DNA of 48,071 bases from NCBI GenBank assembly GCA_016873095.1, contig VGYC01000033.1, positions 1 to 48,071 of the forward strand. Direction: 5' to 3'. Of this stretch, positions 23,773-46,588 are shown piece after piece (positions within the stretch are counted from its first letter, which is position 1; each line of letters opens with the position of its first letter). This DNA comes from Planctomycetota bacterium. GTDB lineage: Bacteria; Planctomycetota; Planctomycetia; Gemmatales; Gemmataceae. The notes beneath the pieces were generated by a model. It was given only the letters and a program-made list of their open reading frames with translations, did no database searches and had not been told where the DNA came from. Made by a program: the position numbers and the translations under genes.

Positions 23773-25503
23773 ATGATCGCAACGTCCCTCCAGGCCACCG
23801 AGCACACGGTCACGCTTCGCGACGGCACGTCGCTCTTCTATCGCGCCTGGTTGCCGGCGACGCCCACGGACAGGGCGTTGCTGCTGTTTCATCGCGGGCA
23901 TGAGCATTCCGGGCGCTGGCAGGAAACCGTCGAGGCGCTCGGCCTGGAGGATGTCGCGGTCTTCGCCTGGGATGCGCGCGGACATGGGCGGTCGCCGGGG
24001 GAGCGCGGCGCGGCGCCGGACCTGAGGGTGGTCGTCAAGGACGCGGATGAGTTCGCCCGGCATGTTGCTCGCCACCACGACATTCCCGTCGAGAACATGG
24101 TGGTGCTCGCGCACAGCGTCGGCGGCGTGATCGCCACGGCCTGGGTGCACGACTATGCTCCGCCGATTCGGGGACTCATCCTGGCCACGCCGGCGTTTCG
24201 TGTGAAGCTCTATGTGCCGTTCGCCGTGCCGCTCTTGCGGCTGCGTGAGAGGCTTCTTGGCCCAGGCTTCGTCAAGAGCTACGTCAAGGCGACGATGCTG
24301 ACGCACGACCGCGCACAGGCCGAAGCATACCGGGCCGATCCGCTCATCTTCCCGCAGATCTCCGTGCGCATGCTGCTCGATCTGCATGACACATCCACGC
24401 GGTTGCTGGCCGACGCCGGGGCGATCACAGTGCCAACGATGCTGCTCGTCGCCGGATCGGACTGGGTCGTGAAGGCATCGGCGCAGCGACGTTTTCTTGC
24501 GGACATTTCATCTCCGGTCAAGCGCATCGAGACGCTGCCCGGCTTCCATCATGCCATTTTTCACGAGAAGGATCGCCACCTGGTTGTCGACAAGGTTCGC
24601 GAGTTTGTCCGCGAGCTATTCGACCGGCCGCCGTCGGCGACCTCTCTGCTCGCCGCCGACAAGCACGGCTACACGAAGGCGGAATATGCCCGCCTGTGCC
24701 GGCGCGGCGGTCTGCGCTACGCACCGGTACGCTGGCTGATGAAGACAATCGGCCGGATCAGCGGCGGCGTGTCGCTCGGCTGGCGGAGTGGCTTCGATTC
24801 CGGCGTGATGCTCGACTATGTCTATGAAAACCGTCCGCAAGGCTTCACGCCGCTGGGTCGCATGGTGGACCGGTCTTACCTCGACAGCATCGGCTGGCGC
24901 GGCATCCGCGTTCGCAGGACCAACCTCGAACAGCTCTTGCAGCAGGCCATCGAGGAGATCGCGGCCGCTGGGCGTCCCGTCCGGCTGCTGGACATCGCCT
25001 GCGGCGGCGGCCGGTATCTACTCGACACGATCCATCGCCTCAAGCACATCCCGATCACCGCCGTGCTCCGCGACTACAAGCAGGAGAACCTCGACGCTGC
25101 GAAGCGCCGGGCCGACGAGCTTGGCTTGACGAATGTCCGCTTCGTCCAGGGAGACGCATTCGATCGCGCAGCGCTCGCGGCCATCGAGCCGAGGCCGACC
25201 ATCGCCATCGTCTCTGGACTCTATGAGTTGTTCCCGGAGAATGAGCCGGTCCTGCGTTCCCTGCACGGCCTGGCCGATGCGCTCGAACCTGATTGCCGGC
25301 TCATCTACACCAACCAGCCCTGGCATCCGCAGGTCGAGTTCATTGCGCGTACGCTGACCAATCGCGAGGGCCGGCCGTGGATCATGCGCCGCCGCAACCA
25401 GACGGAGATGGATGAGCTGGCCAGGACGGCCGGCTTCGACAAGCTGTCGCAGGAGATCGATCCATGGGGGATCTTCACGGTATCGCTGGCGAGACGGCGC
25501 TGA
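23773..25503 (+). CDS. ynbC: YnbC-like alpha/beta-hydrolase-methyltransferase fusion
   Basis: 576 residues from the ATG at 23773 (GGAG upstream). Residues 1-285 are an alpha/beta hydrolase of the monoglyceride-lipase type: LLLFHRGHEHSGRW, the nucleophile elbow AHSVGG with S115, D230 in AGSD, and H259 or H260 in GFHHAIFHE. A linker (about 290-390) leads to a SAM-binding domain with motif I LLDIACGGG at 405-413. The fusion and length match E. coli YnbC (about 585 residues as remembered). It probably acts on a lipid product of the neighbouring YnbA/YnbB-like enzymes. The next gene follows directly. Confidence 0.88.
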   Translation: MIATSLQATEHTVTLRDGTSLFYRAWLPATPTDRALLLFHRGHEHSGRWQETVEALGLEDVAVFAWDARGHGRSPGERGAAPDLRVVVKDADEFARHVARHHDIPVENMVVLAHSVGGVIATAWVHDYAPPIRGLILATPAFRVKLYVPFAVPLLRLRERLLGPGFVKSYVKATMLTHDRAQAEAYRADPLIFPQISVRMLLDLHDTSTRLLADAGAITVPTMLLVAGSDWVVKASAQRRFLADISSPVKRIETLPGFHHAIFHEKDRHLVVDKVREFVRELFDRPPSATSLLAADKHGYTKAEYARLCRRGGLRYAPVRWLMKTIGRISGGVSLGWRSGFDSGVMLDYVYENRPQGFTPLGRMVDRSYLDSIGWRGIRVRRTNLEQLLQQAIEEIAAAGRPVRLLDIACGGGRYLLDTIHRLKHIPITAVLRDYKQENLDAAKRRADELGLTNVRFVQGDAFDRAALAAIEPRPTIAIVSGLYELFPENEPVLRSLHGLADALEPDCRLIYTNQPWHPQVEFIARTLTNREGRPWIMRRRNQTEMDELARTAGFDKLSQEIDPWGIFTVSLARRR

Positions 25504-25505
25504 CA

Positions 25506-26777
25506 ATGACTCGCAAGGCTGTCGCCTCGGCCGGGCTGTCGCTGTTTTTCTTGCTCGTCTATGGCGGCGCCAACTGGATCACGACGCTGCGCCCCGACGT
25601 CGGCACCTGGTACTTCGACTGGGAGCTGGAAATCCCACTCGTGCCGGTCATGATCGTGCCGTACATGTCGATCGACCTGTTCTTTGTCCTTGCCCCGTTC
25701 CTGTGCAGTTCTCGCCGCGAGCTGGCGACGCTGGCCAGGCGAATCGTCTTCTCGATACTGGTGGCGGGAACATTCTTTCTCATCATGCCGCTGACCCTGG
25801 GGTTCCGGCGCGAGCCGGTGCCGGGCATCTTCGGCCCGATCTTCGAATGGTTTCGCGGCATGGATGCGCCGCACAACCTCTTTCCATCGCTGCACATCGC
25901 GCTGCGGACCTTGCTGGCGGAAATCTATGCCCGGCACACGCGCGGACTCCTGCGTGTGATCATTCTCGCGTGGTTCAGCCTGATCGGCTTCTCGACGGTT
26001 CTGACGCATCAACATCACCTGGTGGACATTGCGGGTGGCTTCTTGCTGGCCGGCTTCGCGTTCTACTTCTGCCGCGAATCCAGCGTCTGGCTGCCGGTCG
26101 TGCCGAACATTCGGGTCGGCATTCTGTATGGCATGGGGGCGGTGCTGGTGCTGACCGCCGCGCCTCTGGTCTGGCCGTTGGGCGCCTTCTTCTTGTGGCC
26201 GGCGACGGTGCTCGCTATCGTGGCCGCGGCGTACTTCGGCCTGGGGCCGGGCATTTTCCGCAAGAGCGCTGGCCGGCTGCCTTGGAGCACGCGCTTCGTG
26301 TTCGCGCCGCTGCTCTTCGGGCAGCATCTCTCGCTTCTCTACTATCGCCGGCAATGTCGGGCCTGGGATGAAGTGACGCACAACGTGCTCGTCGGCCGAC
26401 GGCTGAATGACTCGGAGGCGGCCGACCTGGTCCGCCGGGGTGTCACGGCGGTGCTGGACCTCACGGCCGAGTTCTCCGAAGCGACGCCGTTCCTGGCGCT
26501 GCGTTATCGCAATCTCGCCATCCTTGATCTCACCGCGCCGACGACCGCGCAGCAGCAAGAAGCCGCTCTTTTCATCGCCGAGGAGTGTGTCAACGGGAAG
26601 GTGTACGTGCACTGCAAGGTCGGCTACTCGCGCAGCGCCGCCGTGGTCGGAGCCTATCTTCTCGCCAGTGGACAGGCCGCCGGCGCGGAGGAAGCCGTGG
26701 CGATGTTGCGGCGCGCACGACCGGCCATCATCGTGCGCCGTGAGGCGCTGGCGGCTCTGCGAAAAGGCGAAACATGA
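25506..26777 (+). CDS. ynbD: YnbD-like PAP2-dual-specificity-phosphatase fusion membrane protein
   Basis: 423 residues from the ATG at 25506, two bases after the hydrolase stop. An ATG at 25464 has a better binding site (AGGAG) and would overlap the upstream gene by 40 bases. The N-terminal half is a multi-helix PAP2 unit with PSLHIA (PSGH equivalent) and STVLTHQHHLVDIAGG, holding the His and Asp of the third PAP2 motif. After further helices a cytoplasmic tyrosine/dual-specificity phosphatase domain carries VYVHCKVGYSRS, the complete HCxxGxxRS loop. Two phosphatase types in one membrane protein is the YnbD design. It is probably a lipid phosphate phosphatase of the same pathway. Confidence 0.88.
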   Translation: MTRKAVASAGLSLFFLLVYGGANWITTLRPDVGTWYFDWELEIPLVPVMIVPYMSIDLFFVLAPFLCSSRRELATLARRIVFSILVAGTFFLIMPLTLGFRREPVPGIFGPIFEWFRGMDAPHNLFPSLHIALRTLLAEIYARHTRGLLRVIILAWFSLIGFSTVLTHQHHLVDIAGGFLLAGFAFYFCRESSVWLPVVPNIRVGILYGMGAVLVLTAAPLVWPLGAFFLWPATVLAIVAAAYFGLGPGIFRKSAGRLPWSTRFVFAPLLFGQHLSLLYYRRQCRAWDEVTHNVLVGRRLNDSEAADLVRRGVTAVLDLTAEFSEATPFLALRYRNLAILDLTAPTTAQQQEAALFIAEECVNGKVYVHCKVGYSRSAAVVGAYLLASGQAAGAEEAVAMLRRARPAIIVRREALAALRKGET

Positions 26778-26781
26778 AGCC

Positions 26782-28431
26782 CTATCTTCCTAGCAACTCT
26801 ACCGCCGGCGGGCACGTCAGATGCCGTTGCCAGCTGTTGTCGTCGCGCTTCGGGTAGTCGGCGCGGAAGTGAGTGCCGCGCGATTCCTCGCGCTGCTGCG
26901 CGGACCAGATCATCAGACGGGCGATGGTGAGGAGATTTTGCAGCTCCCAGCCGGAGCGGTCGTCGAACTCGCGGTCGAGTACGTAACGGCACCAGAAGGC
27001 GACGTCGCGCTCGGCCTCGGCCAGTTCGGCGCGGATGCGGACGACGCCCATGTGCCGGAACATCGAGCTGCGCAGCGAGTTGGTGATGTCGGCCACATCG
27101 AGGCTGCCACTGGTTTCCGGCTCGAACCGACTTGCGATCGACCGGACCGCCAGGGCATCGGGCATGTGTGCTGCCGCTTCGGCCGCGCCCGTGCCGCAGG
27201 CTGCCCCGAATACCAGGCCTTCGAGCAAGCTGTTGGACGCGAGTCGATTGGCGCCATGCAGTCCGCTAGACGTGACCTCCCCCGCAGCCCAGAGGCCAGG
27301 CACGGTCGTGTGGCCCTCGGCGTCCACGGTGACGCCGCCGACCATGTAGTGGGCGCCAGGCCGGATCGGGATCAGGTCGTCGGCAATGTCGAGGCCGAAA
27401 TCGCGGCAGACCTTGGCAATGCCGGGAAAGCGCCGGCGGACCTTGTCGGCATCCAGATGCCGCAGATCGAGATACACGCATGGGTGGTGCGTCCGCTCCA
27501 TGCAGCGGACGATGGCCTGGGCGACGACATCGCGCGGCGCCAACTCGGCGCGCGGGTCCTCGGCCAGCATGAAGCGTTGCTGGTTCTTGTCGCGCAAGAA
27601 AGCGCCCTCGCCGCGTACCGCTTCGCTGATGAGAAAACGGCTCGACCCGGCCACGTACAGCACCGTCGGATGAAACTGCATGAACTCCATGTCGCGGAGC
27701 TGGGCGCCGGCACGATAGGCCGCCGCCATGCCGTCGCCGGTAGCCACTGGCGGGTTTGTCGTCTCGCGATAGACCATGCCGCAGCCGCCGCTGGCAAGGA
27801 TCGTTTGCTTAGCCCAGATGAGCATCCGGCCGACGCCCGGCCGTTGCACGATCGCGCCCACGCAGGTCTCGTTTTCCGTGAGCAGGTCGATGGTGAAGGT
27901 CCTGTCCCAGATGTTGATGTTCGGCTGCTTGAGCGCGCGGGCGATGATGGCACGCATCACCTCATGGCCGGTGGCGTCGCCCAGCGCGTGTACGATGCGA
28001 CGATGGCTGTGACCACCCTCGCGCGTCAGCGCCAGCCGGCCTGCTTCCTCGTCGAAGTTCGTTCCCCAGCGGATGAGGTCGGCGATCTGCTCGGGGGCCT
28101 CGCGGACGACCATCTCGACGATGTCCGGATGACACAGCCCTCCTCCGGCCGTGAGCGTATCCTCGATGTGGTTCTCGAAGCGGTCCTCCGGGGCGAGCAC
28201 GCCGGCGATGCCGCCCTGGGCGTAGCTGCTGTTGCTCTGCTGCACGCTGTCCTTGGTGACGACGAGCACGTCAAGCGCTCTCTCGCCGCGTGCCTCTTTC
28301 CCAGGGTTCGAGGAGATCTGGAGGGCCGCTCGCAAGCCGGCGATGCCGCCGCCGATCACCAGGATCTCGGTGAAATAATGCGGAACCTGCCGAGGTTGAA
28401 AACGCACCAGATAACGATGGCCGGCGGGCAT
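26782..28431 (-). CDS. nadB: L-aspartate oxidase
   Basis: 549 residues from the ATG at 28431, which begins four bases after the stop of the large WD40 membrane-protein gene. FAD-binding VIGGGIAGLRAAL lies at 25-37. NadB/fumarate-reductase flavoprotein blocks follow: SSYAQGGIAGV, TREGGHSHRRIVHALGDATG, MEFMQFHPT, ISEAVRGEGA, HYMVGGV and GLHGANRLASNSLLEGLVFG. It oxidises L-aspartate to iminoaspartate for NAD synthesis. No nadA or nadC is in the window. The helical C-terminal domain is complete. It converges with the YnbD-like gene, leaving only four bases between stops. A succinate dehydrogenase subunit is unlikely given the SSYAQGG motif and the lack of sdhB/C. Confidence 0.93.
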   Translation of the reverse strand: MPAGHRYLVRFQPRQVPHYFTEILVIGGGIAGLRAALQISSNPGKEARGERALDVLVVTKDSVQQSNSSYAQGGIAGVLAPEDRFENHIEDTLTAGGGLCHPDIVEMVVREAPEQIADLIRWGTNFDEEAGRLALTREGGHSHRRIVHALGDATGHEVMRAIIARALKQPNINIWDRTFTIDLLTENETCVGAIVQRPGVGRMLIWAKQTILASGGCGMVYRETTNPPVATGDGMAAAYRAGAQLRDMEFMQFHPTVLYVAGSSRFLISEAVRGEGAFLRDKNQQRFMLAEDPRAELAPRDVVAQAIVRCMERTHHPCVYLDLRHLDADKVRRRFPGIAKVCRDFGLDIADDLIPIRPGAHYMVGGVTVDAEGHTTVPGLWAAGEVTSSGLHGANRLASNSLLEGLVFGAACGTGAAEAAAHMPDALAVRSIASRFEPETSGSLDVADITNSLRSSMFRHMGVVRIRAELAEAERDVAFWCRYVLDREFDDRSGWELQNLLTIARLMIWSAQQREESRGTHFRADYPKRDDNSWQRHLTCPPAVELLGR

Positions 28432-28435
28432 GTCA

Positions 28436-31400
28436 TTACTTCTTGTCGGGCAGGGCAGGGGAGGGCGTCCCGCGCGTGAACTCGCGATGGGCCTGACGGA
28501 ACTCCGGCGGCGGCAGGAAATGGCTGCCTTGCAGGGCTTCGAGCGGGTCGTTCTTGCCGTTGCCGACCTGGAAGGGGCCGCTGCTCTTGAGCTTGCTGTT
28601 GCCGCCGCGGGTCTTGTCGAACTTGGCCTGGGCGCGGGATTTTTGCAGCGCTTGCTCGTAGGCTTGCACGTCTTTTTTGAACTTCTGCCAGTCGGCATCG
28701 GAGATGCCGGCCTGCTTGCGCTCGGCGGCACTGGTCTTCTTGATCAGCTCCTTCATGTCTTCGAGCGTGAGGTTGCCGCCGCGTTTGCCGGCTTCCTGGT
28801 CGGGGGCCTGCGGCTTGTGATCGCCGGCGAGGCCGTGCTGGCCGCCGCCGAAGTCGCCGGCCTTCTCGCCCCCCTTGGTCTCGCCCCCCTTGGTCTCGCT
28901 CTGCGCGGTGTCTTGCTTTCCGGACTCGCCTTTGCCGGTGGCCGGCTTCTGCGATGGGAAGTCGCCTTTCACCTTCGGTCCCTTGATTTCCTGACCGCCT
29001 TTTTCGCCCTCGCCCTTGGGGATGGCCTGGGCCTGGTGTTCCTCGCCCGGGCCGTTGCCCTTCTTGGCACGGGCCGGATTGCGGTTGGCTTGCTGGAGAG
29101 CATCGTCAGCAGCGTCGCGCACCTTCGGGTCGCGGGCGTTCCGGCGAATCTTGGAAAGATCCCGCTCGGCCTTCTCCTGCGCGGCCGGGTCCTTCTGCTT
29201 GTTGAGATCGTCGGCCGCGCTTTTCACATCATCGAGGCTTGGCTCGCGGTCGCCGGCCTTCTCGGCGCCGGGATCGCCCTTGGCCTGGGCAGAGCGCCTG
29301 GCATCGTCGGGATTCGACTGCTTGGCCTGCGATTTGTCGCCGCTGCCCTTGCCGGAATCGTTGCCCGCCTTGGCGGCCGCGGATTTGTCGCCGCCGGATT
29401 TGGGGCTGTCCTTGGCCGTGCTCGGCGGTTCCTTCTTATCTTCGCTCTTGGCGGCCCCGTGTGAACCGCTCTTGCCGGCCTCGTCCTTGCCCTTGTCCTT
29501 GGCGCTGGCCTGTTGCTCCCCCTTGCCGTTGTCCTGGTCCTTGGCCTGGGCTTGATCAGTGCCGCCCTTCTTGGGTTCGGACTTGTCCTGAGCGGATTTC
29601 TGACCGCCTGAGCCGGACTTGTCGTCCTTGGCCTGAGAGTCGGGCTGCTCCTTGCCGGCCTGCTTTTCCTTCCCCTTTGCCTGCGGGTCGTTCTTCTGTT
29701 TCGGATCCTCCTGCTTGGCCTGGCCGGGGCTATCTGCTTTCAAACCTTTGTCCTTGCCTTGCTCCTTGGCCGTACCGCTGGATTTTTCCGGTGACTGCTT
29801 GGCGGCACTCTTGTCCTCCCCCTTGTCGGTTTTCGGATTGGAATCCTGCTTGTCGGCAGTGCCCTTGGGGCCCGCGTCGGACTTGTCGCCTGGGCCCTTG
29901 GCCTGGGCCTCGCCGTTCTTGTCCTTGGGACCTTTCGGATCATCCTTGCGGCCGTCGTCGCGAGCCTGACCGGGCTTCTGCTCGTCGCCCTGCTTGCCGG
30001 CGTCCTTCTGCGCGCCGGGCTTGTCCTGGTCCTTGTCGCCCTTGTTCTCCTTGGCAACGGCTTCGTTGTTCTCGCCCTTCTTGGTGTCACTCTGCGGACC
30101 GTCCGTGCCCTTGGCTTCACCCTTGTCGTTCTTTGATTCTTGCTTGTCGTGTTGCTTGGGGTCGTTCTTGTTGAGCTGATCCTTCAGCTTCTGGGCCTGG
30201 TTGTCGAGCTCGTCGCGCTTCTTCTCCTGTGCCTTCTGCTCGGGCGTCTTCTGATTGTTGGCCTGCTGCTCCTCCTCCCTGGCAGCCTTGTTTCTGCGCT
30301 CGAGGTCCTGGTCCTGATTCTTCTGATGCTCCCTGGCGCCCTGCTCGGCTTTCTGCTGATCCTGCTTGGTCTTCTTCGCGTCCTTCTCCGGTTCGTCGAT
30401 GAGGATCTTGTGCGCGACGCTCTTGCCGAGATTGCCGCTGACGCTGGGGTAATCCGAGTTATCGACGGCCTCCAGCCAGAACTCGAGTGTCATGCCTCTC
30501 TTCAAGGCAAACGGCTGTTCCTTGGCGGGCTTGATCCTATCTGAATTCGTCAATGACGATACGTCCCATAAGCGCACGGTCTTATCAGCGCTTGCCGAGG
30601 CAAGCGTATTACCATCTGAGCTGAAGACCACACATGTGACATCTGCTTCATGTCCTTTGAGAACGGCCTTGATCGTTTGTGTGTCTAGATCCCAGAGGCG
30701 CACCGTCCTGTCATGACTGCCCGAAGCAAGCGTCTTGCCATGAATTGCTACTGACGATACCCATTTCTCATGTCCCCTGAGAATGGCTTTCACCTTACCG
30801 GCCGCGGGATCCCATAGATTGATTTTCCCTTCATCATCTCCCGAAGCCAAGGTCATGCCATCCGCGCTGAACGCAACGCAAAGTTGGGGGTTCTTGTCCG
30901 TCAGCTTACCTCGTTGCTTGCCGGACGGTATGTCCCAAAGAGTGATTCCAGGGGGAAGATTGAAGCCCAATCCGGCCAGCGTTTTGCCATCGGGCGCGAA
31001 GCGCACACCTACCACGGGACCGATTCGCTTACCTTGCAAGTCGGCCTGAATTCTTGCTGAGTCCAAATCCCACAGTTTGATTTGATCCATTATGGCGATC
31101 ATTTCAATCAAACCGCCCGCAGCCAGCATCTTGCTGTCGGGACTGAACGCCAGACTCGTGACCTTGTCGTCCTTGAGCGTGCCCTTCTGCTTGAGATTAT
31201 CCACATCCCAAAGCCTAATCGCCTTGCCGTTCGACGTGGCAATCGTCTTCCCATTAGGGCTCAGGGCCATCATCCAAGTATCGCCCGGCTTCTCGTCAAA
31301 GACGGTAGCGGCCTTGCCGGAGCCCAGGTCCCATAGCTTGAGCTGCGAACCTTGCGGTTGCTTCGATTGATCGTGACTCAAGGTAATTAGCTTGCCATCT

Positions 31401-32965
31401 GGGCTGAAAATGATGGCTGGGATCGGATCCGGGAAATCTCTCAACACCGCCCGAAGTGGCACCGTGACCTTTGCATCCAAAGAGACGAAGTCCTTGTATT
31501 CCAGGAAATCCGGGTACTTGCCGTTCGCAAGCTGGAAGGACTTGCCGGGTCGATACGGCTTCGGTTCGAGAACGTGAATTGCGCCCTGGTCATGAGCCCT
31601 TAGTCGAAGGACCATGCTCTTGATGCCGAAGTCGTCGCGTGCGGACCCTTCCAGCGGGACCGTGCCGTTGGCCGGATACACGTCCTTCTCCGGCTTCTTC
31701 AGTTCGACCAGCGGCGACAGATCGGGAATGATCTCGATCTTGTGAGCCGAGCGATCGATGTTGCGCTCGCCCTGCTTCGAGACGAACAGCACGTGGAAAA
31801 AGCCGTTGCGGTCGAGCAACAGCTTGGGAAAGCGCATCGCCAGTGGATCATCGGGCAACACTTCGCCTGGCAGGTCCACGTATTCCTTCTTGCCTTCCGT
31901 CCATTGCACGCGCAGCTTGCCCTCGCGGATCGGGCAGTTGGCGTGGATGACCAGGCGCACCTCGGTGCCGCGCGGCGCCTTCAGGCCGGCGAACAGACCA
32001 GGCGAATACCGATGCGAGCGTTCGTGGATGCGTAGATACGGGCGATAGCGGTAGGCGGGCACGAACGCGCGGACCTGCGGGGTCGGCACAACATTGATCC
32101 GAAATTCCGACGTCTCGGCGTCGTTGGCCGTGATCTTGTACCAGAGCCCGCCGTTGAGAAGCTGATCGGCCGGCAGCGTCACGGCATAGTTGCCGTCCCG
32201 GTCCTGCTCGAGGGGCATGCCCGCGAAGTCGTCAGCCTGGTTGTAGCGGAAGTGCAAGCGTGGCGCGCACTCGTTGTTGATGGCGGGCACGCGGCCATCA
32301 ATCGCAGCGCGAATCGTCAGTGGCCGGCTGGGCGGCACCGTGGCGTTGCCGCCTTCCGGCTCGACTATTGAGATCGAGGTCCGGGTGGCGATGCCGACTT
32401 CCTGAAACGGCGCGAAGGCCCGCCCCATCAGCGACATGAATTGCCGCGGACTGGCTGCGAACAGGATCACGACGCCAAGCACCAGTCCCGCGAGGACGCC
32501 CGCCAGAATCCAGGTCGGGCCGACGTTGACTGCCTGCTCCGGGTCCGCCTTGCGCAGGTCGCGCGCCGCGCGGTTCCCCAGCGCGCTCAAGATGACGGGT
32601 GGCAGCTTCTCGTCGCGCAGATCCAGCCAGTTGACGACGCTGTTTTTGGCGTCCGGCAGCGTCTCCTCCAGCATGCGGGCTGCGTAGTAGGGATTGATCC
32701 GACGATAGAGTGACAGCAGCACCGAGCCCGCGAGAAACAGCGCTGCCAGGCAATAGACGATGAAGCCGGTGAGACGAACCCACGTGGGCAGTTCCAGAAG
32801 GCGATCCAGCCCGGCGGCAAAGAGGGCATACGCAAACGTGACCACGAAGAACCACAGGATGGCCCGCCCGGCGTCCAGCGAACGGATACGTCCGCGCATG
32901 CGCGCGAGCTGATCTTCCACGAAGACTTCATGCTTGGCAATCGGCTTCGTCTGCACGGTGGACAT
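28436..32965 (-). CDS. Large membrane protein with inserted seven-bladed WD40 propeller and Lys/Asp/Gln-rich tail
   Basis: 1509 residues from the ATG at 32965 (GGAGG upstream). Three hydrophobic segments lie in the first 170 residues (ILWFFVVTFAYALFAAGL, LTGFIVYCLAALFLAGSVLL, WILAGVLAGLVLGVVILFA), followed by Ig-like extracytoplasmic domains. About residues 505-810 form seven WD40 repeats (SPDGK...LWDL units). The Ig-like sequence resumes with PFALKRGMTLEFWLEAVDNSDYP. Residues of about 860-1390 are low-complexity and highly charged, and a short helical domain (LTLEDMKELIKKTSAAERK) closes the protein. The N-terminal plan is that of a planctomycete family I know without the WD40 block. Function unknown. 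nadB follows four bases downstream. Confidence 0.85.
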   Translation of the reverse strand: MSTVQTKPIAKHEVFVEDQLARMRGRIRSLDAGRAILWFFVVTFAYALFAAGLDRLLELPTWVRLTGFIVYCLAALFLAGSVLLSLYRRINPYYAARMLEETLPDAKNSVVNWLDLRDEKLPPVILSALGNRAARDLRKADPEQAVNVGPTWILAGVLAGLVLGVVILFAASPRQFMSLMGRAFAPFQEVGIATRTSISIVEPEGGNATVPPSRPLTIRAAIDGRVPAINNECAPRLHFRYNQADDFAGMPLEQDRDGNYAVTLPADQLLNGGLWYKITANDAETSEFRINVVPTPQVRAFVPAYRYRPYLRIHERSHRYSPGLFAGLKAPRGTEVRLVIHANCPIREGKLRVQWTEGKKEYVDLPGEVLPDDPLAMRFPKLLLDRNGFFHVLFVSKQGERNIDRSAHKIEIIPDLSPLVELKKPEKDVYPANGTVPLEGSARDDFGIKSMVLRLRAHDQGAIHVLEPKPYRPGKSFQLANGKYPDFLEYKDFVSLDAKVTVPLRAVLRDFPDPIPAIIFSPDGKLITLSHDQSKQPQGSQLKLWDLGSGKAATVFDEKPGDTWMMALSPNGKTIATSNGKAIRLWDVDNLKQKGTLKDDKVTSLAFSPDSKMLAAGGLIEMIAIMDQIKLWDLDSARIQADLQGKRIGPVVGVRFAPDGKTLAGLGFNLPPGITLWDIPSGKQRGKLTDKNPQLCVAFSADGMTLASGDDEGKINLWDPAAGKVKAILRGHEKWVSSVAIHGKTLASGSHDRTVRLWDLDTQTIKAVLKGHEADVTCVVFSSDGNTLASASADKTVRLWDVSSLTNSDRIKPAKEQPFALKRGMTLEFWLEAVDNSDYPSVSGNLGKSVAHKILIDEPEKDAKKTKQDQQKAEQGAREHQKNQDQDLERRNKAAREEEQQANNQKTPEQKAQEKKRDELDNQAQKLKDQLNKNDPKQHDKQESKNDKGEAKGTDGPQSDTKKGENNEAVAKENKGDKDQDKPGAQKDAGKQGDEQKPGQARDDGRKDDPKGPKDKNGEAQAKGPGDKSDAGPKGTADKQDSNPKTDKGEDKSAAKQSPEKSSGTAKEQGKDKGLKADSPGQAKQEDPKQKNDPQAKGKEKQAGKEQPDSQAKDDKSGSGGQKSAQDKSEPKKGGTDQAQAKDQDNGKGEQQASAKDKGKDEAGKSGSHGAAKSEDKKEPPSTAKDSPKSGGDKSAAAKAGNDSGKGSGDKSQAKQSNPDDARRSAQAKGDPGAEKAGDREPSLDDVKSAADDLNKQKDPAAQEKAERDLSKIRRNARDPKVRDAADDALQQANRNPARAKKGNGPGEEHQAQAIPKGEGEKGGQEIKGPKVKGDFPSQKPATGKGESGKQDTAQSETKGGETKGGEKAGDFGGGQHGLAGDHKPQAPDQEAGKRGGNLTLEDMKELIKKTSAAERKQAGISDADWQKFKKDVQAYEQALQKSRAQAKFDKTRGGNSKLKSSGPFQVGNGKNDPLEALQGSHFLPPPEFRQAHREFTRGTPSPALPDKK

Positions 32966-36019: not shown

Positions 36020-38386
36020 ATGAGTTACCCGCGCATCATTCTGGTCTGGAGTCTGCTGGCGCTCATGAGCGCCGGCTACCTGGCGGTTCCCGCCGGTGGG
36101 CAGGAGTTGGAACCCGTCACGGTGGAGGGGCAGCCGCTTGCCAGCAACGCCACGCGCGTCGTGCAGGCGTTGAGCCTGCTGGGCGCGCCGTTGCCGCCTG
36201 ACAAGGTCGCCGCCTTGAACAAGGCCATCAAGGCCGAGGACGCCAAGAAGATTCAGCAAATCCTCGATCCGCATGTTTTGGTGGTCGTGACGCTCAACCC
36301 GGAGGCGCGGGTGAAGGCCAAGCGCGGGCCGGCCGAGGCCTTTCTCCAGCAGGGCGGTGCCACGCCGGTACTGCTAAAGGTCGTCAACGACAGCACCGTC
36401 GCCAAGGCGCTGCGCGTCAAGAGTCCGCAGGTGAAGCCGCTCTTCTCCGGCGGGGCCGCGGGCCGATTCTTGCCGCACGATGTCGAGATCTTCAGCAAGC
36501 AACCCATGACCGAGAAGCTCAGCGGGCTCGCGGTCGAGTACGCCATCGCTCTCATCTACAGCCCGGAAGCCGGCAAGCGCGAATACGTGCTGAGCTTTGA
36601 CGTTGGCCAGGGCACCCAAGACCTGGGCTTCCGCGGCGAGGTGCCGGTGACGTTCAATGTCCGCCCGGCCATCCCGGTCACGCTGCGCATCAAGGACCAC
36701 GACGGCAAGGCCACCACCGGGCGCTTCACCTTCAAGGACAAGCTTGGCAACGTCTATCCGCCGCAACCCAAGCGCCTCGCGCCGGACTTCTTCTTCCAGG
36801 AACAGGTCTATCGCCACGATGGCGGCATTGTCGAGCTGCCGCCTGGTGAATTGACGATGACCTACAGCCGCGGGCCCGAATACGTGCAGAAGACTCGCAA
36901 GATCGTTGTCCCGAAGAAGGGCCCGCTCACGCTCGATGTTGAACTCGAACGCTGGGTGAACCCGATGGACTACGGCTTCTACAGCGGCGATCATCACATC
37001 CACGCCGCCGGCTGCGCGCACTACACCAACCCGACCGAGGGCGTGTTCGCCAGGGACATGTTCCTGCACGTGAAGGGAGAGGCGCTCAATGTCGGCTGCA
37101 ACCTCACCTGGGGCCCGTGCTACGATTTCCAGCGGCAGTTCTTCGAAGGCAAGCCGCACAAGATCAGCGAGCCGCTCACGGTGCTGCGCTACGACATCGA
37201 GGTTTCGGGCTTTGGCTCGCAAGCCCTCGGCCATGTGTGCCTGCTGAATCTGCGCGATCAGACCTATCCCGGTTCGGAAGGGACCAAGACCAAGGGCTGG
37301 CCAACGTGGACGACCCCCCTGATGAAGTGGGCCAAGGCGCAGGGCGCGTACACCGGTTACGCCCACTCGGCCAGCGGCCTGGGCATCAACCCCAAGCTGG
37401 CCGCCAAGCGCAAGCTCGCCGAACTCGACACCGACAAGGACGGCAAGCTCTCCGCCGAGGAAGCCGCCAAGGGACTGCTGCCCGAGCCGTTCGCGACCAT
37501 CGACGCCAACAATGATGGCAGCATCGCGCTGGGAGAGCTGATGCAGAGCATCGGCCGCGTCTCGAACCAGTTGCCGAACCTGGCCATCCCGGAAATGGAC
37601 GGCATCGGCGCCCAGGAGATCTGCGTGACGACGGCCCAGGGGCTGTGCGACTTCATCAGCGCCATGGACACGCAGCGCATTCCCGAATGGAACTGCTGGT
37701 ACCACATCATGAACTGCGGCTTCCCCCTGAAGGCCAGCGGCGAGACCGATTTCCCGTGCATCAGCGGCAGCCGCGTCGGCGAGGGCCGCGTCTATGTCCA
37801 GCTCGGCAAGGTGGACAAGGTCGATTTTGCGGCCTGGTGCGACGGGCTCGCCAAGGGCCGGTCCTACGTCTCCGACGGCTACGCCCATGCGCTGCAGTTC
37901 AGCGTCAATGGCAAGACGCCCGGCGGCAAAGTTGATCTCGAGGAAGCCGGCAAGGTCAACGTGAATGCGAAGGTCACATTCGCTTCTGCGACGCCGCTCG
38001 GCACCGCCAAGGGCGGTTCGGTCCCGCCCGGCAAGGACCGCCTTGTGGAGCTGATCGTTAACGGCAAGGCCGTCGCGTCCCGCAAGGTTCCCGCCGACGA
38101 TAAAGAGCACGACATCTCGTTCGAGGTTCCGATCGAGCGCAGTAGCTGGGTCGCTTTGCGGCAATTCCCGCAAATGCACACCAACCCGGTGAACGTCATC
38201 GTCGGCAAGCAGCCGATCCGTGCCTCGCGCTCGAGCGCCCTGTGGTGCATCGGCACCATCGAGCAACTCTGGCGCGTCCGCAACGGCGTCATCGCCAAGG
38301 GAGAGCGCGCCGAGGCTCAAGAGACCTTCCTGCGCGCGATCGAGCAATATCGCAAGATCGCCGCCGCCAGTCCGGAAGGAAGCTGA
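36020..38386 (+). CDS. Exported CehA/McbA-type PHP metallohydrolase with EF-hand insert
   Basis: 788 residues; GGAG precedes the ATG. A signal peptide (ILVWSLLALMSAGYLAVPAGG) leads to about 290 residues of beta-rich domains, then a PHP-type metal site beginning DHHIHAA at 324-330 and continuing through GYAHSASG near 446-453. Two canonical calcium-binding EF-hand loops, D470-E481 and D495-E506, sit between that motif and the next conserved block (AIPEMDGIGAQEIC). A beta-sandwich C-terminus follows. CehA/McbA enzymes hydrolyse phosphoester, carbamate or similar bonds; the substrate here is unknown. The EF-hands suggest calcium control or stabilisation outside the cell. Confidence 0.83.
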   Translation: MSYPRIILVWSLLALMSAGYLAVPAGGQELEPVTVEGQPLASNATRVVQALSLLGAPLPPDKVAALNKAIKAEDAKKIQQILDPHVLVVVTLNPEARVKAKRGPAEAFLQQGGATPVLLKVVNDSTVAKALRVKSPQVKPLFSGGAAGRFLPHDVEIFSKQPMTEKLSGLAVEYAIALIYSPEAGKREYVLSFDVGQGTQDLGFRGEVPVTFNVRPAIPVTLRIKDHDGKATTGRFTFKDKLGNVYPPQPKRLAPDFFFQEQVYRHDGGIVELPPGELTMTYSRGPEYVQKTRKIVVPKKGPLTLDVELERWVNPMDYGFYSGDHHIHAAGCAHYTNPTEGVFARDMFLHVKGEALNVGCNLTWGPCYDFQRQFFEGKPHKISEPLTVLRYDIEVSGFGSQALGHVCLLNLRDQTYPGSEGTKTKGWPTWTTPLMKWAKAQGAYTGYAHSASGLGINPKLAAKRKLAELDTDKDGKLSAEEAAKGLLPEPFATIDANNDGSIALGELMQSIGRVSNQLPNLAIPEMDGIGAQEICVTTAQGLCDFISAMDTQRIPEWNCWYHIMNCGFPLKASGETDFPCISGSRVGEGRVYVQLGKVDKVDFAAWCDGLAKGRSYVSDGYAHALQFSVNGKTPGGKVDLEEAGKVNVNAKVTFASATPLGTAKGGSVPPGKDRLVELIVNGKAVASRKVPADDKEHDISFEVPIERSSWVALRQFPQMHTNPVNVIVGKQPIRASRSSALWCIGTIEQLWRVRNGVIAKGERAEAQETFLRAIEQYRKIAAASPEGS

Positions 38387-45059: not shown

Positions 45060-45655
45060 ATGAGCAGCAACCGCCGAGTGCCGGTTCACGATATCGACCT
45101 GAGCTCGCGGGCGTTCAAGGAAGACCCGTTCCCGACCCTCGCTGCGCTGCGTGCGCTGGGGCCGGTCGTCCGGGTGCGTTTTCCGATCTTCGGCGCGGTC
45201 TGGCTGGCCACGACCTATGAATCCGTCAATGATCTGCTGCGCGATCACGACCGTTTCGTGCAGAGCCCGACGGCGGCCGGCAATCGCTGGATGGGCGCCA
45301 TCGTCCGCTGGCTGCCGGGAGCGCTCAAGCCGCTGGCGACGCACATGCTGTTGCGCGATCCGCCGGATCATCGACGCTTGCGCAGCCTGGTCGATCAGGC
45401 TTTTCTGCGCCACAACGTCGAGACGTTGCGGCCTCGACTCGAGGCGCTGGCGGACGAGGCTGTCTCGGGCCTGGAGAAACAAGCGGCGCGCGGAACCGGC
45501 GTGGACTTGCTCGCCCACTTCGCGCGGCCGTTTCCGCTGGCGGTCATCTGTGAGATGCTCGGCCTGCCGCCGGTGGATCGTCCGCGCTTCACGCGCTGGG
45601 CCTCGATTCTTTCCACATCAACAAGCGTTGCGGGTATCCTCCTCACGCTCTTTGG
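45060..45655 (+). pseudogene. Cytochrome P450, N-terminal half only
   Basis: The ATG at 45060 opens a frame that reads like a bacterial P450: DIDLSSRAFKEDPFPTLAALRALGPVVRV, then HMLLRDPPDHRRLRSLVDQAF (the C-helix region with HxxxR), then FPLAVICEMLGLPPVDRPRF and STSTSVAGIL. After about 195 residues the homology ends near 45650 and the next 70 codons are an out-of-frame reading of the nitrilase gene. The I-helix, ExxR and haem-ligand Cys loop are all absent, so no haem enzyme can form. The break is either a genomic deletion fused to the nitrilase or an assembly join. Confidence 0.8.
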
Positions 45656-45667
45656 CGGCCTTACAAG

Positions 45668-46588
45668 ATGCGCAAGGCAGCGTCGTTCGCCAACTTCTCG
45701 CGCCAGGTGGCTTACTTTCTCGACGTGGCCGCCGACTACGGATCCGACTTCGTGCTGCTGCCGGAGTTGTTCACGCTCCAGCTCCTGTCCCACCTCAACG
45801 CCCTGTCGCCGCAAGAGGGCATCAAGAAGCTATCTGAATACACGCCCAAGCTGCGGAAGTTCTTGAGCGACAGCGCCCGCAAGCATGGCCTGACCATCAT
45901 CGGCGGCAGCCATCCGGTGCACCAGAACGGCAAGCTTTACAATGTCTGCCATGTCTGCCTGCCCGACGGCCGCGTCATCGAGCAGTACAAGCTGCACATC
46001 ACGCCCAATGAACGAAAATGGTGGGGCATCAGCGGCGGCAACCAGCTCGCCGTCATCGACACGCCCAGGGCCCGGGTAGGCATCATGATCTGCTACGACA
46101 TCGAGTTTCCCGAGCCGGTTCGCTACCTGGCCGACGTCGGCGCCGAGATCATTTTCGTCCCCTTCTGCACCGATAATCGCCAGAGCTACCTGCGCGTCCG
46201 CTACTGCGCCCAGGCACGCGCCATCGAGAACCACGTCTACGTGGCCCTGGCGGGCAACGTCGGCAACTTGCCCGATGTCGCCAACATGGACGTGCAGTAC
46301 GCCCAAGCCGCGGTCCTGACGCCTTCGGACTTCGCCTTCAGCCGCGACGGCGTCGCCGCCGAGGCCGAAGCCAACGAAGAAACCGTGCTCGTCTGCGACC
46401 TCGATCTGGACGCCCTGCATCATTCCCGCAATGCCGGTACGGTGACGCCGCGTCTGGATCGCCGCTCGGACATTTTCCAGTTCGTCGCGACCTTTCCCGG
46501 CGGCGTGAAGCGCCTTTACCCTGCTCATGAGGGGCCGCTCGGTGACCAGCTCTTGACCGCAGCGCCCACGGCTCCCGAAGGGCAATAA
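45668..46588 (+). CDS. Carbon-nitrogen hydrolase (nitrilase superfamily), 5'-truncated
   Basis: 306 residues if translation starts at the ATG at 45668. The catalytic triad is complete: E33 (LLPELFTL), K108 (EQYKLHITPNE) and C142 (MICYDIEFPE). The family's first strand (VAAVQY-type) is missing: homologues I remember read QY-x-MRK-x-x-SF, and the codons just before the ATG still read Tyr-Lys, so the break lies within a few bases upstream. Relatives are often fused to an N-terminal GNAT acetyltransferase domain, which would also be lost. It hydrolyses amide or nitrile C-N bonds; the substrate is unknown. Expression from the P450 promoter is possible, but no binding site is clear. Confidence 0.82.
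   Translation: MRKAASFANFSRQVAYFLDVAADYGSDFVLLPELFTLQLLSHLNALSPQEGIKKLSEYTPKLRKFLSDSARKHGLTIIGGSHPVHQNGKLYNVCHVCLPDGRVIEQYKLHITPNERKWWGISGGNQLAVIDTPRARVGIMICYDIEFPEPVRYLADVGAEIIFVPFCTDNRQSYLRVRYCAQARAIENHVYVALAGNVGNLPDVANMDVQYAQAAVLTPSDFAFSRDGVAAEAEANEETVLVCDLDLDALHHSRNAGTVTPRLDRRSDIFQFVATFPGGVKRLYPAHEGPLGDQLLTAAPTAPEGQ

Follow-up and report, generated by a model that had tools for sequence, protein, structure and literature searches.

The protein encoded at positions 28436–32965 of the minus strand carries a complete seven-bladed WD40 propeller of 312 residues (K499–R810, positions 30536–31471), which lies between the host residues A498 and I811 of an Ig-like membrane protein. The window, which is the whole stretch of DNA analysed, covers 48,071 nucleotides from a Gemmataceae genome. 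It is quite probable that the propeller was inserted whole and in frame into a loop of the third Ig-like domain on a Gemmataceae lineage, without loss of host sequence, and it may act there as an added binding platform. The features of the host gene and its neighbour are as follows.

28436–32965, minus strand: host gene, DUF4175-like membrane protein with an Ig-like ectodomain, a nested WD40 propeller and a charged tail (ORF, Pfam)
32795–32878, minus strand: predicted transmembrane segment 1, within residues 30–57 (Kyte-Doolittle scan)
32696–32791, minus strand: predicted transmembrane segment 2, within residues 59–90 (Kyte-Doolittle scan)
32426–32533, minus strand: predicted transmembrane segment 3, within residues 145–180 (Kyte-Doolittle scan)
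31472–32416, minus strand: host ectodomain before the insertion point, residues 184–498 (AlphaFold2 model of the homologue L086, Foldseek, alignments)
30536–31471, minus strand: inserted seven-bladed WD40 propeller, K499–R810, 936 bp (alignment edges, LWD ends, GC and GC3, codon bias, AlphaFold2, VIA-align)
30356–30535, minus strand: resumed host sequence, residues 811–870, last strands of the third Ig-like domain with the LEFWLEAVDN motif (alignments, models)
28439–30355, minus strand: low-complexity tail rich in K, D, A, Q and G plus C-terminal segment, residues 871–1509 (composition of residues 871–1300)
26782–28731, minus strand: neighbouring ORF, next downstream of the host gene, with the real start inside the ORF (tblastn)

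The host gene is a single frame without interruption, which starts with ATG at 32965 and encodes 1509 residues. Residues 184–498 span two Ig-like domains plus the beginning of a third, with limits read from the strands of the model. The sequence-only reading had called the host an Ig-like membrane protein. By its profile match the host is more precisely a distant Gemmataceae relative of Pfam DUF4175 (PF13779), because residues 1–502 score 24.5 bits (E 8.4e-6), below the gathering cut-off of 27.3 for membership, whereas the homologue of Limnoglobus roseus scores 29.6 bits, above this cut-off. The host profile gave two weak matches among solved structures, KIAA0319L (E 0.0042) and spore coat protein V (E 0.42). 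Foldseek with the host ectodomain matched many tandem Ig proteins, all at low TM-scores, and the ectodomain is therefore assigned to the Ig-like fold and to no specific family. Judging from the hydrophobic segments, the Ig-like domains, the propeller and the charged tail are predicted to lie outside the cytoplasm. No Pfam domain was matched in the charged tail (residues 871–1509), and an NCBIfam search gave one sub-threshold match (E 0.03). The DNA of the tail (28439–30355) shows an extreme AT skew, to -0.8 on the plus strand.

The insert matches Pfam WD40 (PF00400) with 133.3 bits (E 1.3e-39) against a gathering cut-off of 27, and is thus a member of this family. Seven LWD ends are found at residues 544, 585, 631, 676, 717, 757 and 799. 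These data confirm the WD40 propeller inside the host protein. The block had been placed at 30545–31450; it is indeed complete and seven-bladed, and its true extent is slightly wider, 30536–31471. Seven host residues, IKPAKEQ, stand between the end of the insert and PFALKRG. A frame error at the junctions was looked for and no frame break was found: the 312 codons of the insert contain no stop, and 28436–32965 is one open frame. A target-site duplication or microhomology at the edges was considered and rejected, since no repeat was found at the insert edges beyond chance, and 2385 of 5000 random pairs score equally well.

Host homologues were found in 95 of the 98 other genomes of the relatives sample. 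In an alignment of 29 homologues the site was empty in all 29, and the window protein alone had 312 residues in between. In every aligned protein except that of the window, ...LEYKDFVSLDA is followed directly by the counterpart of IKPAKEQPFALKRG...LEFWLEA. A second alignment, with genomes partly shared with the first, showed the empty site in 30 of 30 homologues. Two close homologues read LDKIKTAKGEPFALKPG (L086) and LDALRNAKGEKFEAKPG (L073) at the site, stretches as long as that of the window protein minus residues 499–810, which indicates that no host residue was lost.

The complete homologue set contained 105 homologous ORFs from three retrievals. With duplicates merged, 78 distinct homologues remain, which come from Gemmataceae and from further families of its class. 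No WD40 match was found at E 1e-3 in any of the 78 (105 ORFs), while the same search recovered 29 of 29 other WD40 loci as a positive control. With the exact insert as query, this set gave only three chance matches (E 8–9), to other ORFs. Fifty-one of the 78 homologues align through the site, and the next host strand, with an EYWLEA-type motif, follows directly in 50 of these 51; the exception, L176, is a distant protein in which no such motif was detected. For the remaining 27, the alignment covers only parts upstream of the site, and the main criterion was that the available stretch gave no WD40 match. The expectation that the two flanks are adjacent in homologues was therefore borne out, as was the absence of the block from them, and the opposite outcome, a propeller at this place in all homologues, was seen in none of those examined. 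These results show that the insert is absent from every homologue examined. For a propeller that was ancestral to the family and lost everywhere else, no supporting evidence emerged, and this reading is extremely improbable, because the propeller is found in 0 of 78 distinct homologues across Gemmataceae and other families of the class, because the composition of the insert is unlike that of the host, and because repeated clean loss is implausible.

The family was also searched with a query of the N-terminus plus the propeller, with the best nine first-look candidates per genome scored. At least 83 N-terminal matches from at least 82 of 94 other genomes were obtained, and all those listed end at or before query residue 507; for 12 of the 94 genomes there was no N-terminal match among those listed. 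Some WD40 matches of this search overran the insert edge by up to 18 residues, beginning as early as residue 481 or reaching residue 828. In the six that were retrieved, host flanks were absent (best E 0.38 and 0.75).

The base composition of the insert differs from that of the genome. Its GC content is 0.541 and its GC3 is 0.615, compared with 0.634 and 0.820 for the rest of the gene; GC3 of the host parts is 0.807 before and 0.828 after the insert. Within the contig, 905 windows of 936 bases were taken in steps of 50 outside the insert, and every one of them is richer in GC than the insert (minimum 0.565, mean 0.638, sd 0.025). As a genome control, 162 ORFs in 400 kb of this genome gave 452 windows of 315 codons, and for the comparison the insert was taken as residues 499/500 to 814/815, slightly wider than 499–810. 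None of the 452 coding windows was as GC-poor as the insert (mean 0.644, sd 0.024), 18 had a GC3 as low, and 3 had a lower codon score than the insert (-0.349 versus a mean of 0.011, sd 0.118). Many of the low-GC3 ORFs in this control read like shadow ORFs, which would make the control conservative. Other WD40 stretches of the same genome were compared as well, in an analysis in which two reference genes had been taken in a wrong frame. After two of the 29 best stretches were dropped (one out of frame, one without a literal WD), the remaining 27 had GC3 values of 0.676–0.926 with a median of 0.798, and the insert was lower than all 27. Therefore, low GC3 is not a property of WD40 coding.

In steps of 60 codons, GC3 was 0.70 in host codons 440–499, 0.52–0.78 in the insert and 0.87 by codon 820. 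The proposed plot thus does show GC and codon usage both falling over the insert, with a sharp right edge that matches the alignment and a left edge that is blurred over about 60 host codons. The dip is also uneven inside the insert, here again taken with the slightly wider limits (GC3 0.70 in the first third and 0.54 in the last). Of the G+C counts reported earlier for three 60-base stretches, 32/60 and 30/60 were right and the third is 45/60 rather than 46/60. Such a deviant composition could also be expected if a foreign WD40 fragment had been joined into the gene during assembly, and the genome is a fragmented draft (548 contigs, 8.36 Mb, 3.32% estimated contamination). However, an artefact would require two false joins that meet precisely where two host residues adjoin, keep the frame and lose no residue. 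The genome search also returned no uninterrupted copy of the host gene, only a paralogue (C148) that is 25% identical to the host and has no LWD-type repeat in the 884 residues examined. An assembly artefact is thus very improbable.

The nearest relatives of the propeller alone are, as the check suggested by the sequence-only reading brought out, ordinary bacterial WD40 domains, with best identities of 38–44%. The best full-length propeller of the own genome (C117) is 38% identical to the insert. Over most of the domain, the best values among the matches listed were 43% in a Gemmataceae genome of the relatives sample, 43–44% in the phylum sample and 44% in the plasmid database PLSDB, on a plasmid of Ca. 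Chlorohelix; shorter stretches among the matches listed reached 59% identity (111 residues, relatives). The queries were residues 499–817 for the own genome and the relatives, residues up to 814/815 for the phylum and the exact insert for PLSDB, and the best 22 first-look candidates per genome were scored in the 98 relatives and the best 5 in the 391 phylum genomes. Neither the own genome nor the 98 relatives, the 391 phylum genomes or PLSDB yielded a close donor, with identities of at most about 44% across most of the domain among the candidates scored. Because the best identities over most of the domain are only 38–44%, no donor is named.

The propeller might instead have come from another propeller of the same genome and diverged since, and so not be foreign DNA. 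WD40 domains abound in this genome (150 matches scored) and C117 offers a full-length relative, but DNA-level matches to the own-genome propellers are only 28–59 bases long, and normal GC3 values were measured in the 27 other WD40 stretches. We regard this origin as possible, with a chance well short of even. A direct copy of a paralogous propeller was rejected as a candidate, since no long DNA-level match exists in the own genome. For the proposed in-frame insertion, sequence comparison places the event after the split from the nearest homologues compared, which are 47% identical in the N-terminal part. The earlier claim of a recent domain acquisition is consequently supported as to acquisition, while "recent" has no tighter limit than the divergence from these homologues of about 47% identity. 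The composition hints at a later date.

Structure models were made with AlphaFold2. Residues 401–871 of the window protein were modelled with 30 homologues covering only the flanks and none of the propeller, and this chimera reached a mean pLDDT of 80.9 with a pTM of only 0.59. The Ig-like halves had pLDDT values of mostly 86–97, with 81 just before the insert and 52–60 just after it, and the propeller blocks ranged from 53 to 90. Residues 503–801 of the model aligned to PkwA (PDB 5yzv), the best match, by VIA-align over 281 residues with Z 37.4, rmsd 1.8 and 36% identity, and Foldseek gave a TM-score of 0.90 by target for the same structure. A ring of seven blades is indicated by the seven LWD ends together with this alignment of a predicted structure. 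The model of the uninterrupted homologue L086 had a mean pLDDT of 91, and its strands read as three Ig-like domains. The insertion point in L086 is the loop between strands 302–310 and 329–338, which correspond to residues 487–495 and 826–835 flanking the propeller in the window model. The propeller is thus nested by two measures: its flanks are adjacent in 50 of 51 homologues, and the same strands flank the site in both models. The models predict a seven-bladed propeller on an Ig domain whose two halves remain confidently folded.

The host family shows changes of size in other homologues. In five homologues from other Gemmataceae genera (L158, L160, L161, L169 and L173), WLEA lies 132–144 residues after the expected LDA position, not 10–40, and the N-terminal query gave two overlapping matches, which suggests an extra Ig-like domain. 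In seven others (L106, L107, L151, L153, L154, L155 and L166), a second stretch matching query residues of about 192–496 was found at ORF positions 533–885; as it follows the first match, it is read from the sequence as a repeat of the ectodomain.

On the lineage to this Gemmataceae genome, DNA for one whole WD40 propeller would have entered a conserved membrane-protein gene in frame. It would have entered at a loop that links two strands of the third Ig-like domain, with no host residue lost. Since the first and last residues of a closed propeller are close neighbours, such a domain can be carried on a loop while the Ig domain stays intact. WD40 domains in general form a platform for a peptide or protein partner. 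From these general roles and the predicted topology, the propeller is likely a module for interactions outside the cytoplasm, carried by a DUF4175-like membrane protein, and as an added binding platform it may tie the envelope protein to a new partner. A bolder version is that a new receptor or scaffold is seen here soon after its birth, with a foreign-looking propeller, codon usage not yet adjusted and a new extracytoplasmic partner in this genus alone; this version is offered tentatively. It is also conceivable, and in our view unlikely, that the propeller was inserted as proposed and is a neutral passenger in a permissive loop, with the host working as before. The displaced WLEA of the five homologues and the ectodomain repeats elsewhere show that the host family tolerates size change, and no second genome shows the insert conserved. 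Against a functionless passenger stand the 312 stop-free codons and the close match of the model to seven-bladed propellers, which point to a maintained fold, except in the case of a very young insertion.

The ORF just downstream of the host gene (26782–28731) we take to be L-aspartate oxidase, nadB. By tblastn, 17 of the 36 homologue loci have a nadB-like neighbour immediately downstream of the host gene; at the other 19, including those of the close homologues L078 and L075, there was no nadB match in the stretch available. Because of the neighbouring nadB in the 17 loci, the window gene is most likely an orthologue at a conserved place and not a stray copy. In L086 the neighbourhood is conserved beyond nadB: the 788-residue product of the ORF at 36020–38386 (plus strand) is 70% identical to a homologue that lies about 1.6 kb before that genome's host gene (L086:1–2349). 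Two other places in the window were recorded. At 45060–46588, one ORF ends abruptly and overlaps the start of the next, a possible truncated gene; we assume these to be the N-terminal part of a cytochrome P450, followed by a carbon-nitrogen hydrolase-like ORF. At 25464–26777, a single ORF seems to join two phosphatase parts, presumably a PAP2-like membrane phosphatase and a dual-specificity phosphatase motif (VHCKVGYSRSAAV).

Most nested domain insertions are encountered as architectures that are old and already fixed. Dozens of homologues with an empty site and one filled site with defined edges make the window gene a usable case for propeller movement. It would show how whole propellers move into existing proteins in the WD40-rich planctomycetes, and an insertion with no lost host residue and a compositional dip would be a clean example of module gain. 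It also offers a way into the study of an envelope protein that is uncharacterised and often adjoins nadB. In the literature searched (titles and the starts of abstracts), no description of a DUF4175 or Ig-like protein with an inserted WD40 propeller was found. The nested propeller as such is known from prolyl oligopeptidases, and the searches made returned no other case of this host and architecture. Excerpts of two papers describe planctomycetes as enriched in WD40 proteins, many with kinase domains in the same protein (PMC5587647), and many of their ECF sigma factors as carrying WD40 repeats (PMC8567305).

PkwA of Thermomonospora curvata (5yzv) has the same fold and repeat as the insert (Z 37.4). 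PkwA is named a probable serine/threonine kinase, whereas the insert lies within an Ig-like domain of a membrane protein. The host ectodomain shares its DUF4175 likeness with AdvA of Acinetobacter baumannii, the single experimentally studied DUF4175 protein in the literature searched, which the excerpted report describes as essential and critical for division, with a DUF4175 domain and two predicted TM helices (PMC7481262); none of the examined homologues has WD40. Carrying the division role of AdvA over to the window protein would be a guess by analogy. In the prolyl oligopeptidase family, including bacterial oligopeptidase B, a seven-bladed propeller lies between two regions of another domain and, in oligopeptidase B, is joined by two peptide strands, according to the excerpt of PMC8533160. 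This family is, so far as that excerpt goes, a precedent for a nested propeller and resembles the window protein in this respect; the host there, however, is an unrelated alpha/beta-hydrolase, and the nested propeller is family-wide and restricts access to the active site. In integrins the inserted alpha I domain sits in a propeller, so that a domain lies inside a propeller there, whereas a propeller lies inside an Ig-like domain in the window protein. The alpha I domain was gained by insertion into a surface protein and widened ligand binding, as stated in the excerpt of PMC10659397. To that extent it illustrates, as a parallel case, the way in which an inserted module can function.
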